In this document: one piece after another, positions 25,541 to 29,675 of the stretch
How the letters are laid out: every line of letters begins with the position of its first letter
Position numbering within the stretch: position 1 is the stretch's first letter
The notes under the pieces: generated by a model
The model's database searches: none
What the model was told of the DNA's origin: nothing
Seen by the model: only the letters and a program-made list of their open reading frames with translations
Translations under genes and position numbers: made by a program
Assembly: GCA_021771265.1 (NCBI GenBank)
Contig: JAETPK010000016.1
Location: forward strand, 1-33,645
DNA length: 33,645 nt
DNA from: Oscillospiraceae bacterium
Lineage (GTDB): Bacteria; Bacillota; Clostridia; Oscillospirales; Oscillospiraceae
Direction: 5' to 3'

Positions 25541-25873
25541 ATGAAAAGAATGGACGAGATGGATAGAAACATTCAGCTTCGTTCGGAGGAGTGGGGTTAT
25601 AGAGCTGCTTTGTTGACTTTGAGTGCATGGACGCTATTTAACTGTTATCAAACGCTTGTGAATGATGTGAAGCATAACCCTTTGCCTTCTCTAATTTTGT
25701 GCTTTGCGGTATGTCTTCAATCATTTTCTCAAATGGCTATGAAGCAGAAAATGGTTGCTGGAGATGAAGAGTATCGGGAGCCCAATAAACTCTTACGGAC
25801 AATAATATCCTCTATTGTCGCAGTTGTGCTTATTCTGTCGGTTGCAACTTACCTCACGGTAAGAATGTCTTGA
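25541..25873 (+). CDS. Small uncharacterised membrane protein
   Basis: A protein of 110 residues that I do not recognise by name. A charged N-terminus (MKRMDEMDRNIQLRSEEWGY) is followed by three hydrophobic segments: AALLTLSAWTLFNCY, LPSLILCFAVCLQSF and IISSIVAVVLILSVATYL. The loop before the third is charged (KMVAGDEEYREPNKLL). The ribosome binding site is strong (GGGGAGGT, 6 bases ahead) and a terminator hairpin follows, so the gene looks real. Codons are AT-richer than the neighbours, suggesting a different origin. I saw no partner regulator next to it. Confidence 0.75.
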   Translation: MKRMDEMDRNIQLRSEEWGYRAALLTLSAWTLFNCYQTLVNDVKHNPLPSLILCFAVCLQSFSQMAMKQKMVAGDEEYREPNKLLRTIISSIVAVVLILSVATYLTVRMS

Positions 25874-26023: not shown

Positions 26024-26143
26024 TTAAGCAATCAAGGAGCGACAACCCAAAGTGCTTCCGTACCGGAAAAGACTGGCCGGCTTGATGCCTACCAGCGTGG
26101 GGGCACACTGCTCCACCATCAGCAATTCAAAACTACGGTCCAT
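26024..26143 (-). pseudogene. Truncated DUF3793 gene remnant
   Basis: On minus an ATG at 26143, with AGGAGGAG just ahead, opens a 39-residue frame ending at 26024. Its first part LLMVEQCAPTLVGIKPAS followed by LFRY is the N-terminal signature of DUF3793 proteins, which have about 150-200 residues. After about residue 28 the match stops (GSTLGCRSLIA, then stop), and I found no convincing continuation in other frames downstream. The family function is unknown to me; relatives are seen near flavodoxin and iron genes. A copy of the GTTAG-N6-CTGAC repeat lies 36 bases upstream. Probable decayed gene; the short peptide could still be made. Confidence 0.6.
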
Positions 26144-26178
26144 AAGCTCCTCCTGTACTTTAGTTTCTGTAAGCTTTG

Positions 26179-26194
26179 GTTAGTTTTAACTGAC
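26179..26194. promoter_or_regulatory. Operator-like repeat, copy 1
   Basis: GTTAGTTTTAACTGAC: arms GTTAG and CTGAC (one mismatch) with a 6-base spacer. It is 36 bases upstream of the DUF3793 remnant start. Confidence 0.45.
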
Positions 26195-26301
26195 TATCAA
26201 GGTGAAAAACCAGCCGATGTCCATGGAGCGGGCCGTGTCCTTTTTCAGGCGCAGCATCTGTATACGCTCCAGATAATCTTCGTGGATTCGTGAATGTTCA
26301 T
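26186..26301 (-). pseudogene. Frameshifted and truncated DtxR-family metalloregulator
   Basis: On minus, ATG at 26301 (AAGGAGGG ahead) reads MNIHEST and then leaves frame. If one base is restored after the Thr-Glu junction, the line continues EDYLERIQMLRLKKDTARS then MDI, the N-terminal helix of DtxR/MntR-type metal-dependent repressors (typical HES-x-x-x-YLE start, RSIDIA). After MDI homology ends (GWFFTLIVS, stop at 26186), so the rest of the HTH, metal-binding and dimer parts, some 90 or more residues, is gone. Both a frameshift and a deletion are therefore present. It is divergent from feoA, the normal place for an iron regulator of this operon. See findings. Confidence 0.65.
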
Positions 26302-26338
26302 AAATGCGCCCTCCTTACAGGCAGGCATCCATTCGCAG

Positions 26339-26354
26339 GTCAACACAAACTAAC
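26339..26354. promoter_or_regulatory. Operator-like repeat, copy 2 (degenerate)
   Basis: GTCAACACAAACTAAC: one clean CTAAC arm, the other degraded, same 16-base span. It is 38 bases upstream of the DtxR remnant start. Confidence 0.35.
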
Positions 26355-26383
26355 CAAATTTGCAAGTTTTTCAAAACCCGGTC

Positions 26384-26412: not shown

Positions 26413-26427
26413 AAAGCCGATTCAAAG

Positions 26428-26443
26428 GTTAGTATACGCTAAC
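26428..26443. promoter_or_regulatory. Operator-like repeat, copy 3 (feoA)
   Basis: GTTAGTATACGCTAAC; with the flanking G and C the arms GGTTAG/CTAACC are perfect. Lies about 10-25 bases past the start of transcription, where a bound repressor would block. Confidence 0.6.
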
Positions 26444-26462
26444 CCGAATTTTTCACAAGAAA

Positions 26463-26478
26463 GTTAGCTAAAGCTAAC
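26463..26478. promoter_or_regulatory. Operator-like repeat, copy 4 (feoA)
   Basis: GTTAGCTAAAGCTAAC: 15 of 16 bases in symmetric pairs, directly ahead of the feoA ribosome binding site and 35 bases from copy 3. Confidence 0.6.
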
Positions 26479-26495
26479 CAAAAAGGAGCGATGGT

Positions 26496-26708
26496 ATGAT
26501 GCCGCTGACAATGGCCAAAACGGGAGAGACGGTCACCATTCGCAAGATCACCGGCAAAGATGATGTGCGCCAGCATCTGGCAGAGCTGGGCTTCGTGGTG
26601 GACAGTGACGTGACTGTGGTGAACGAGATCGCCGGCAATCTGATCCTGCAGGTAAAAGACAGCCGAATCGCCCTGGACCGGACCATGGCAAACCGCATCA
26701 TGATTTGA
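26496..26708 (+). CDS. feoA: FeoA-family ferrous iron transport protein (first copy)
   Basis: A 70-residue SH3-like FeoA protein: AKTGETVTIRKITGKDDVRQHLAELGF, then VVDSDVTVVNEIAGNLILQVKDSRIALDRTMANRI. FeoA is a small cytosolic partner of FeoB. AAGGAG lies 7 bases ahead of the ATG. It opens the feoA-feoA-feoB run. It differs from the second FeoA, so the pair is not a recent tandem copy. Confidence 0.93.
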   Translation: MMPLTMAKTGETVTIRKITGKDDVRQHLAELGFVVDSDVTVVNEIAGNLILQVKDSRIALDRTMANRIMI

Positions 26709-26811: not shown

Positions 26812-27033
26812 ATGAAAACGCTGAAGGATGTCAAGGTGGGTGAAACCGCTGTCGTGGTAAAACTCCACGGCGAGGGCCCGGTGAAGCGCCGGATCATGGA
26901 CATGGGTATCACCAAGGGCGTGGAAATCTTCGTCCGCAAGGTGGCGCCGCTGGGTGATCCCATGGAGCTGAATGTGCGCGGCTACGAGCTGAGCGTGCGC
27001 AAGGCAGATGCCGAGATGATCGAAATTGTATAG
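26812..27033 (+). CDS. feoA: FeoA-family ferrous iron transport protein (second copy)
   Basis: A 73-residue FeoA: MKTLKDVKVGETAVVVKL, then GPVKRRIMDMGITKGVEIFV with the family's RR-I-DMG-GxxI pattern and ELNVRGYELSVRKADAEMI. The match to FeoA is closer than that of the first copy. CAGGAGGAGAG stands ahead of the ATG. It lies 103 bases after the first feoA and 254 bases before feoB, in the same direction. Confidence 0.95.
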   Translation: MKTLKDVKVGETAVVVKLHGEGPVKRRIMDMGITKGVEIFVRKVAPLGDPMELNVRGYELSVRKADAEMIEIV

Positions 27034-27253
27034 GTGGGACGTTGTCCCCCCTATATACGGATTTTTGGGCCTTGCCCAAAAATCCGATACCCCCTCACCT
27101 TTGCACAGCAAAGGCGTCACCGCGGTGGACAGAAGTGTTTTGGCGGAAGTGAATTCCGCCAAAACGAAATGGCCGCCGCAGCAAAAATGATTTCACAGAT
27201 TTGCCGCAGAACGGCAAAGGAGCGGTGCGAGGCCGCTTTTGTTCAGCATCCAG
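27034..27253 (+). repeat. Array of back-to-back inverted repeats between feoA and feoB
   Basis: Consecutive hairpins: CGGATTTTTGGGC/GCCCAAAAATCCG (27058-27086, loop CTT), CCTTTGC/GCAAAGG (27098-27114), a CACCGCGGTG palindrome (27118-27127), GTTTTGGCGGAA/TTCCGCCAAAAC (27137-27165), TTTGCCG/CGGCAAA (27200-27218) and AGCGG/CCGCT (27221-27237) with TTTTG behind. No gene fits here. Confidence 0.6.
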
Positions 27254-27269
27254 GTTAGTTGAAGCTAAC
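27254..27269. promoter_or_regulatory. Operator-like repeat, copy 5 (feoB)
   Basis: GTTAGTTGAAGCTAAC, perfect 5-base arms, 6-base spacer, 18 bases ahead of the feoB ATG. Its presence suggests feoB has separate control. Confidence 0.6.
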
Positions 27270-27287
27270 ATTCGAAAGGAGAGCGCT

Positions 27288-29501
27288 ATGGAACTCAAGA
27301 TCGCGCTGGCGGGCAATCCGAACTGCGGAAAAACCACCCTGTTCAATGCTCTGACTGGCTCCAACCAGTACGTGGGCAACTGGCCCGGCGTCACGGTGGA
27401 AAAGAAGGAAGGTAAGCTGAAAGGCCACAAAAATATCATCATTCAGGACCTGCCGGGTATCTACTCCCTGTCCCCTTACACCTTGGAAGAAGTGGTGGCC
27501 CGGAGCTTTCTGGTGAATGAAAAGCCCGACACCATTTTGAACATTGTGGACGGCACCAACATCGAGCGGAACCTGTACCTCACCACCCAGCTCATTGAGC
27601 TGGGCCTGCCGGTGGTGGTGGCGGTGAACATGATCGACCTGGTGCGGAAAAATGGCGACACCATCGACCTTGGCAAGCTGGGCGCGGCCTTGGGCTGCGA
27701 AGTGGTGGAGATGAGCGCCCTGAGGGGCGAAGGCGGCCTGGAGGCCGCCGAGAAGGCGGTGGCCCTGGCCCAGGGCCACAAGGCCGGGGAACTGCCCCAC
27801 GTCTTCACCGGCAGCGTGGAGCACGCCCTGGCCCACATTGAGGAATCCATTCAGGGCAAGGTGGACGAAGGGTATCTCCGCTGGTACGCCATCAAGCTCT
27901 TTGAGCGGGATGAAAAGGTCCTGAAGGAACTGGACCTGGGCAATGCTCTGGCGGAGCATCTGGAATCGCACATCGTCGACTGTGAAAAGGAGCTGGATGA
28001 TGACGCCGAGAGCATCATCACCAACCAGCGCTATGCCTACATCAACAGCGTGGTCAGCAAGGCGGTAAAGAAGAAAGCTCCCAAGGGCAGTCTCTCCGTC
28101 TCCGACAAGATCGACCGGATCGTCACCAACCGCATCCTGGCCCTGCCCATCTTCGCAGTAGTCATGTTCTGCATCTACTCCATCGCCATGGGCGCCTCCC
28201 CCGCCGACGGCGGTGTGGGCATTGGCACCTTCGGCACCGACTGGGCCAACGACGTGCTGTTCGGGGAGATGGTCCCCGGCTTCTTTGACGGTATTCTGAC
28301 CTCCCTGGGTGTCAGCGGCTGGCTGTACGGCCTCATTATGGACGGAATCGTGGCCGGTGTGGGCGCGGTGCTGGGCTTTGTGCCTCAGATGCTGGTGCTG
28401 TTTTTCCTGCTGGCCATTTTAGAGGACGTGGGCTACATGGCCCGCGTGGCCTTCATTATGGACCGGATCTTCCGCCGCTTCGGCCTGTCTGGCAAGAGCT
28501 TCATTCCCATGCTGGTGGCCACCGGCTGCGGCGTGCCCGGCATCATGGCATCCCGGACCATTGAGCAGGACCGTGACCGGAAGCTGACCATCATGACCAC
28601 CGGCTTCATCCCCTGCGGCGCCAAGATGCCCATCATTGGCCTGTTTGCCGGCGCTGTGTTCGGCGAGTCCCCCTGGGTGGCCACCTCCGCCTTCTTCATC
28701 GGCATTGCCGCCGTGGTCATCTCCGGCATCATGCTAAAGAAGTTCCAAGCCTTCGCCGGGGAGCCCGCCCCCTTCGTCATGGAGCTGCCCACCTATCACC
28801 TGCCCTCCGCCGGCAACGTCCTGCGGGCCACCTGGGAGCGGGGCTGGAGCTTCATCAAGCGGGCCGGTACCGTCATCCTGCTAAGCTCCATCATTCTCTG
28901 GTTCCTGATGGGGTACGGTTTTGTGGACGGCGTGTTTCAGGCTGTGGAGGATAATAACGACTCCCTGCTGGCCGCCATTGGCAGCGCTGTCGCCTGGATC
29001 TTCTATCCCTTGGGCTGGATGGGCGACATGGCCTGGAAGGCCACGACTGCCACCTTTACCGGTCTCATCGCCAAGGAAGAAGTGGTCAACTTCTTCGGCA
29101 TTGCCTATCACTACGCCGGCGATGCCGACCTGTTGGAGGATGCCAGCGCCATCTACGCCGCCATCGGTGCGGACTTCGGCGCTGTGACAGCTTACAGCTT
29201 CATGATCTTCAACCTGCTGTGCGCCCCCTGCTTCGCTGCCATGGGCGCCATCAAGCGGGAGATGAACAACACAAAATGGACCCTGGGGGCCATCGGCTAC
29301 ATGTGCGGCTTTGCCTATGTGGTGTCCATGATCGTCTATCAGTTGGGCGGCCTTGTCACCGGCGAGGCGGTGTTCAGCCTGTGGACGGTGGTGGCCATTG
29401 CCGCTTTGGCCGGTATCCTGTACCTGCTGTTCCGCAAGGGCTATCAGGGTGAGCATGAGACCCACAGCCTCACCTCCGTGGCCGCCGCGGCCGCGAAGTA
29501 A
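27288..29501 (+). CDS. feoB: Ferrous iron transport protein B (Fe2+ transporter GTPase)
   Basis: A 737-residue FeoB. The cytosolic G domain starts at once (MELKIALAGNPNCGKTTLFN, G1 at 9-17; DLPG is the G3; the G4 NMID appears as VAVNMIDL). The inner-membrane domain has many hydrophobic segments, with the paired pore motifs ATGCGVPGIMASR and IPCGAKMPI (Cys residues). It moves Fe2+ into the cell. The frame is open upstream to 27201, but ATG at 27288 has AAAGGAGAG ahead. It is last of the large genes of the operon and is followed after 15 bases by the small Cys-rich gene. Length is normal (700-800). Confidence 0.97.
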   Translation: MELKIALAGNPNCGKTTLFNALTGSNQYVGNWPGVTVEKKEGKLKGHKNIIIQDLPGIYSLSPYTLEEVVARSFLVNEKPDTILNIVDGTNIERNLYLTTQLIELGLPVVVAVNMIDLVRKNGDTIDLGKLGAALGCEVVEMSALRGEGGLEAAEKAVALAQGHKAGELPHVFTGSVEHALAHIEESIQGKVDEGYLRWYAIKLFERDEKVLKELDLGNALAEHLESHIVDCEKELDDDAESIITNQRYAYINSVVSKAVKKKAPKGSLSVSDKIDRIVTNRILALPIFAVVMFCIYSIAMGASPADGGVGIGTFGTDWANDVLFGEMVPGFFDGILTSLGVSGWLYGLIMDGIVAGVGAVLGFVPQMLVLFFLLAILEDVGYMARVAFIMDRIFRRFGLSGKSFIPMLVATGCGVPGIMASRTIEQDRDRKLTIMTTGFIPCGAKMPIIGLFAGAVFGESPWVATSAFFIGIAAVVISGIMLKKFQAFAGEPAPFVMELPTYHLPSAGNVLRATWERGWSFIKRAGTVILLSSIILWFLMGYGFVDGVFQAVEDNNDSLLAAIGSAVAWIFYPLGWMGDMAWKATTATFTGLIAKEEVVNFFGIAYHYAGDADLLEDASAIYAAIGADFGAVTAYSFMIFNLLCAPCFAAMGAIKREMNNTKWTLGAIGYMCGFAYVVSMIVYQLGGLVTGEAVFSLWTVVAIAALAGILYLLFRKGYQGEHETHSLTSVAAAAAK

Positions 29502-29516
29502 AAAGGAGGCATCACG

Positions 29517-29675
29517 ATGTCTGGTATTTGGGGAAACGTGATCGTTCTGGCAGTGTTGGCCGTTGTTGTGGCCCTGGCTGTCCGCTCCCTGTGGCGTTCC
29601 CACAAGTCCGGCGGCCACTGCAATGGAGACTGCGGCTCCTGTGGTGAGTGCCACGGCAGCTGCCGCTCCAAATAA
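29517..29675 (+). CDS. FeoB-associated Cys-rich membrane protein
   Basis: A 52-residue protein. One membrane segment (NVIVLAVLAVVVALAVRSLW, about 7-26) is followed by a positively charged turn and a C-terminal Cys-rich tail with HC, CGSC and CHGSC (five Cys). This is the P12669-type FeoB-associated protein, found just after feoB in many Firmicutes; a role in handling iron or metal at the membrane is inferred. AAAAGGAGG stands ahead of the ATG, 15 bases after feoB stops. Confidence 0.92.
   Translation: MSGIWGNVIVLAVLAVVVALAVRSLWRSHKSGGHCNGDCGSCGECHGSCRSK

Follow-up and report, generated by a model that had tools for sequence, protein, structure and literature searches.

The analyzed window is a stretch of 33,645 nucleotides that makes up contig C10 of the draft genome of an Oscillospiraceae bacterium (genome G000; 2.31 Mb in 161 contigs, approximately 95% complete). 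It hosts an operon composed of two feoA genes and a full-length feoB, followed by the gene of a FeoB-associated Cys-rich membrane protein. On the opposite strand, divergent from feoA1, lie the remains of two further genes together with operator-like dyads (Table 1). Contig C78 of the same genome carries a second feo locus, whose FeoA scores 77.4 bits with PF04023. A search of the whole window with Rfam at gathering thresholds returned no known structured RNA. The window also contains, at positions 25541-25873, a 110-residue open reading frame with hydrophobic stretches that matches nothing in NCBIfam or Pfam.

Table 1. Features of the feo locus and of the facing relics, with the strict box of the second feo locus
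Feature	Position	Strand	Description
DUF3793 (PF12672) relic	26024..26143	-	Start and approximately 28 homologous codons, followed by unrelated residues up to a stop
Operator-like dyad before DUF3793 relic	26177..26196	.	TTAG-N6-CTGA, one half-site off consensus
DtxR-family repressor relic	26186..26301	-	Start codon and approximately 30 codons of homology over two frames; remainder missing
Translatable product from intact start	26245..26301	-	18 codons and stop
Ribosome-binding site of dead dtxR	26310..26316	-	AAGGAGG, intact
Operator-like site of dead dtxR	26337..26356	.	Degenerate, score 5.1
feoA operator 1	26426..26445	.	Matrix score 23.2, full dyad
feoA operator 2	26461..26480	.	Matrix score 25.7, full dyad
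feoA1	26496..26708	+	PF04023, 65.3 bits
feoA2	26812..27033	+	PF04023, 73.8 bits
feoB-proximal operator	27252..27271	.	Matrix score 23.1, full dyad
feoB, full length	27288..29501	+	TIGR00437, 530 bits
FeoB-associated Cys-rich membrane protein	29517..29675	+	PF12669, 53.5 bits
Strict DtxR-type box of second feo locus	Contig C78:4693-4708 (L213:1194-1209)		Directly before FeoA gene

According to the original prediction, a minus-strand frame divergent from feoA begins like a DtxR-type repressor (MNIHEST), keeps its ribosome-binding site and has lost the rest of the protein after a frameshift. Our analysis agreed on each of these points, and the coordinates were exact. The frame of the start codon breaks less than ten codons from the ATG and gives 18 codons before its stop. 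The DtxR-like continuation, EDYLERIQMLRLKKDTARSMDIG, is found in a different frame (26281-26213), and homology runs out near codon 30; the stop of this second frame closes the relic at 26186. The second-frame piece aligns with the N-terminal part of intact DtxR proteins, of which many are encoded at the same place and divergent from feoA. Its best relative reached an E-value of 7e-4 over 22 residues, in a database of 114 fetched loci and the window with composition correction off. Homology is detectable also in the DNA, where blastn alignments span the feo promoter, the start codon and the gene (74% over 245 bp with locus L013, E-value 2e-31; 70% over 231 bp with L014, from the promoter into dtxR).

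Intact relatives encode DtxR proteins of approximately 120-130 residues with two Pfam domains, namely the N-terminal winged-helix DNA-binding domain PF01325 (46.8 bits in L151) and the metal-binding/dimerization domain PF02742 (53 bits in L151, 53-58 bits in the three intact relatives that were scanned). With its approximately 30 codons in two frames, the stub does not amount to a PF01325 domain. The 31-residue second-frame piece is unmatched in Pfam, and a DtxR profile gives the stub 18 bits, or 12.2 bits (E-value 0.26) in the search of the whole genome. The stub is short and family libraries are blind to it, and its putative identification as dtxR rests on position and alignment. It agrees with the feo-divergent DtxR/MntR regulators of Oscillospiraceae that bear both domains (for example L014, L013, L017, L020 and L021) in start, N-terminal residues, ribosome-binding site, position and orientation, and differs from them in its broken frame and in the lack of the DNA-reading helix. 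Position, orientation, the promoter-to-gene alignment and the place of L014 as sister in the FeoB tree all point to descent from an intact feo-divergent dtxR. Judged from the sequence, the stub is a relic of a DtxR/MntR family member and not a working member. Its predicted product cannot be a repressor, because it ends ahead of the DNA-reading part and is without the metal-binding/dimerization domain.

The decay covers two genes and goes beyond the frameshift. Approximately 70 bases beyond the dtxR stub lies the start of a DUF3793 gene, which the original prediction had overlooked. Over its first 28 or so residues, this second stub matches intact DUF3793 proteins at their N-terminus (a profile built in this analysis scores it at 45.6 bits); PF12672 itself gives 18.2 bits (E-value 0.0025, profile positions 1-21), below its cut-off of 25.1. 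Most of the gene is absent from the window, as the stub lacks the remaining 160 or so residues of the intact proteins. In L014/L151, feoA, a divergent DtxR gene and a DUF3793 gene on the DtxR strand are intact and follow the same order and orientation as the window stubs. The dyad in front of the DUF3793 relic also has a counterpart at the same place in L151, where it is a full dyad. From codon 29 or so of dtxR to the start of DUF3793 there are approximately 620 bases in L014 compared to approximately 70 in the window; therefore approximately 0.5 kb is missing here, including the rest of dtxR. A search for DUF3793 in the window genome returned no match, and control genomes were equally without a match in that search. 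In another locus (L154:8012-8861), a second, paralogous DtxR gene beside DUF3793 is found in two pieces in different frames.

As expected from the original prediction, relatives carry an intact DtxR gene in the same slot, including L014. We surveyed the 900 bases upstream of feo in 71 distinct feoA-feoB loci, the window included. An intact divergent DtxR gene was found in 25 loci and a relic in three, 38 showed none and five were short, with less than 600 bases available upstream. The relic labels were set by hand for the window, L019 and L133. The L133 relic was detected by eye and by its start-codon pattern and was missed by the profile, so that short relics may escape among the 38 loci counted as having none. 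The gene is truncated in L019, with a stop at codon 18, and in L133 approximately nine codons are left, after which the same strand continues with the frame of a P-type ATPase (PF00122). The boxes in the promoter region of the L133 relic (L133:3-712) now stand ahead of this ATPase frame.

In a tree of 61 FeoB rows, the sister of the window is L014, from Dysosmobacter sp. (support 97/86), on a long branch. Together with L006 and L007, in which no DtxR gene is seen at feo, the window and L014 make up a four-row clade that is supported. L014 is the putative sister by the tree only, and by plain FeoB identity L005 (91%), L007 (90%) and L006 (89%) are nearer to the window than L014 (84%); the L005 contig stops short of feoA. 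The intact state changes 12 times on the tree when four short rows are treated as not intact, and 11 of these changes are forced by well-supported branches. The three relics sit at three separate places. What we observe is the ordinary decay of a gene whose kind is known, in a slot that has often changed state. One further row, L008 (NZ_LT904908.1), is titled Collinsella provencensis and groups among Oscillospiraceae rows, with a FeoB 87% identical to that of the window, which may reflect mislabeling or transfer.

The original prediction also held that the operators had been kept when the local repressor was lost, and three full dyads indeed face the feo genes. Boxes were scored with a matrix built from 153 strict sites in relatives (consensus AGGTTAG-N6-CTAACCT), from which the window was left out; only the scores of the window are independent of the matrix. 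In 68 of the 71 loci a box scoring more than 9, and in 64 one scoring more than 15, lay no further than 200 bases from feoA, compared to 0.4 and 0 of 71 in shuffles of the same composition. Boxes above 9 were detected in 24 of the 25 loci with intact dtxR, 37 of the 38 with none seen, all three relic loci and four of the five short ones. The feo genes are therefore preceded by a conserved dyad of the kind expected for a DtxR-type operator. Genome-wide, the strict pattern GTTAG-N6-CTAAC occurs four times and its reversed-pattern control never. All four sites are at the two feo loci, three in the operon of the window and one directly before FeoA of the C78 locus. The looser TTAG-N6-CTAA is uninformative (six sites versus seven reversed controls in the genome).

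PMC8464063 gives the IdeR/DtxR boxes of Actinobacteria as TTAGGTTAGSCTAACCTAA and proposes a one-dimer form, TTAGGNNNNCCTAA. The boxes of the window share with the latter the TTAG and CTAA half-sites at 14-bp spacing. They differ from the actinobacterial boxes in following AGGTTAG-N6-CTAACCT, with no inner GG/CC, and in standing as separate single boxes, all of them predicted sites. If they behave as in the DtxR/IdeR family, DtxR dimers loaded with metal would bind these dyads and shut off feo transcription when metal is plentiful. The site in front of the dtxR relic scores 5.1 in the window versus 13.4-14.4 in L013, L014, L017, L021 and L133. Taken alone, this weak box does not indicate decay, because the site before intact dtxR in L012, L020, L027 and others scores below 0 and hence lower than in the window.

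In the search of the whole genome, no DtxR over cut-off was found in the draft, and two Fur-family proteins are present. The PF02742 domain has no match anywhere in the draft genome at an E-value of 0.001 or less, and PF01325 has none over its cut-off, with two partial matches below it (24 and 23.8 bits). A 22-row DtxR profile searched at E-values up to 10 returned solely the stub (E-value 0.26) and one chance-level match. Neither of the Fur-family proteins appears to be a clear iron Fur, because their model scores are below the NCBIfam cut-offs. One scores best with PerR models (89.5 bits) and adjoins rubrerythrin (PF02915); the other reaches 60.4 bits with the Fur model and 43.3 with Zur, and adjoins an ABC-transporter ATPase.

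In the genus, we considered a DtxR as full at approximately 130 bits or more, whereby G008 (131 bits, cut by a contig end) qualified and G079 (39 bits) did not. Among the 31 genomes with a completeness of 90% or higher, a DtxR match with an E-value of 0.01 or less is present in 29 and is full or nearly full in 28. The three without a full DtxR (G000, G027 and G079) compare to 1.6 expected from incompleteness. When all 61 genomes are considered, 14 are without a full DtxR versus 8.6 expected, a moderate excess. Genomes without a full DtxR have fewer strict boxes (median 1.5 versus 5; P-value 0.005, Mann-Whitney test, which ignores completeness and kinship). In G027, FeoB matches are weak (best E-value 6.8e-8) and strict boxes are absent.

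The position of the DtxR gene varies among these genomes. Both G007 and G088 have a relic at feo and an intact DtxR elsewhere. In the sister genome (G065, which also appears as G085), the sole DtxR match is the feo-divergent copy, that is the one that is dead in the window genome, while in G084 and G086, the other two members of the FeoB clade, the sole match lies away from feo (on contig 22 and contig 7, respectively). The dtxR of Pseudoflavonifractor phocaeensis, a culturable relative, is likewise at a distance from feo. Within the stretches seen, some of them truncated by contig ends, none of the members of a second DtxR clade (28 of 76 tree rows) lies next to feoA. In 11 stretches around DtxR genes away from feo, no neighbor family occurs in more than three, except for DtxR itself and a frame that overlaps it.

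Relatives also encode a short DtxR/MarR-like winged-helix protein after feoB (L117:3832-4227, L145:2852-3217 and equivalents), which has PF01325 and not PF02742 in the two cases scanned. The L117 protein scores 41.5 bits with PF01325 and 30 bits with MarR. With a profile built from relatives in which its gene follows feoB, matches above 130 bits to this feoB-linked protein are found in 22 of the 61 genus genomes, and the window genome has no match. G079 (98% complete, 4% contamination) bears nine strict boxes, feoB and the feoB-linked protein.

We consider it very probable that a dtxR-DUF3793 pair formerly stood opposite the feoA1-feoA2-feoB operon and that the region is what decay has left of it. 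The frame is disrupted near the start of dtxR, and the 0.5 kb and most of DUF3793 are missing. This reading is supported by the 25 loci whose intact gene occupies this slot in the same direction and by the succession of DtxR and DUF3793 in L014/L151. Homology from the promoter into the stub, the DUF3793 stub and the two further relics point in the same direction, as do the restriction of all strict boxes to feo loci and the draft with no DtxR by PF02742 or, beyond the stub and one chance-level match, by the 22-row profile. Against it stand the 38 loci with no DtxR in the slot, among them L006 and L007, which are among the nearest by FeoB identity, the shortness of a stub unseen by family libraries and the two partial PF01325 matches elsewhere in the genome. 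A sequencing or assembly artifact of an intact gene could explain a frame break alone, and the draft is fragmented; yet such an error would not account for the segment missing between the stubs in comparison to L014 and for most of DUF3793, and comparable relics occur in two other assemblies. We regard an artifact as very improbable.

Once the local copy is taken as dead, the feo boxes may be read in trans by a DtxR missing from the draft, or they may have been recently orphaned, with feo derepressed. The former has an even chance or slightly better. A DtxR within the unassembled few percent would control feo from elsewhere, as suggested by the two genomes with a relic at feo and an intact DtxR, by the second DtxR clade with no member seen beside feoA and by the presence of boxes near feoA whatever the state of the slot. 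The draft itself shows no DtxR, and a priori only approximately 5% of its genes are missing. That every DtxR has been lost is a serious possibility, at somewhat below an even chance. It fits the profile searches, the two Fur-family proteins and the sister genome with the feo-divergent copy as its sole DtxR match. It is weakened by the incompleteness of a draft in 161 contigs, by the only moderate excess of absences over those expected in the genus, by the persistence of the feo operators as full dyads and by the DtxR away from feo in two of the three other members of the FeoB clade. Genome-wide loss is unproven, because the draft is approximately 95% complete and both other genomes with relics hold an intact DtxR elsewhere. 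More speculatively, and in our opinion unlikely, the lineage could be without any DtxR and its four strict feo boxes could have been taken over by a different, unrecognized regulator, with G079 as a would-be second case. A slightly less likely variant, which overlaps with total loss, is that the boxes are served by another regulator such as the feoB-linked winged-helix protein and that the dtxR stub is irrelevant. The L117 protein, with its PF01325 and MarR scores, and G079, rich in boxes and with so weak a DtxR match, speak for it, but the winged-helix protein is unmatched in the window genome too, and the half-sites and spacing of the boxes are those of the one-dimer IdeR/DtxR consensus in PMC8464063.

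In titles and opening lines of abstracts on DtxR with feoAB or feoB, Clostridia, DUF3793, regulator loss, Faecalibacterium, Dysosmobacter, the DtxR box and pseudogenes, the locus is not described. The decayed dtxR-DUF3793 pair clearly illustrates how one operon lost its local metal repressor and kept that repressor's type of binding site, in a slot that changed state many times in the group. For annotation, the relic accounts for an otherwise meaningless intergenic stretch, and it suggests that DUF3793 belongs to the feo regulon in this lineage. More pointed is the question of what maintains the four strict feo boxes when no DtxR is visible in the genome. If it is true that the genome is without DtxR, it would provide a natural test of the cost of unregulated ferrous-iron uptake to a gut anaerobe.
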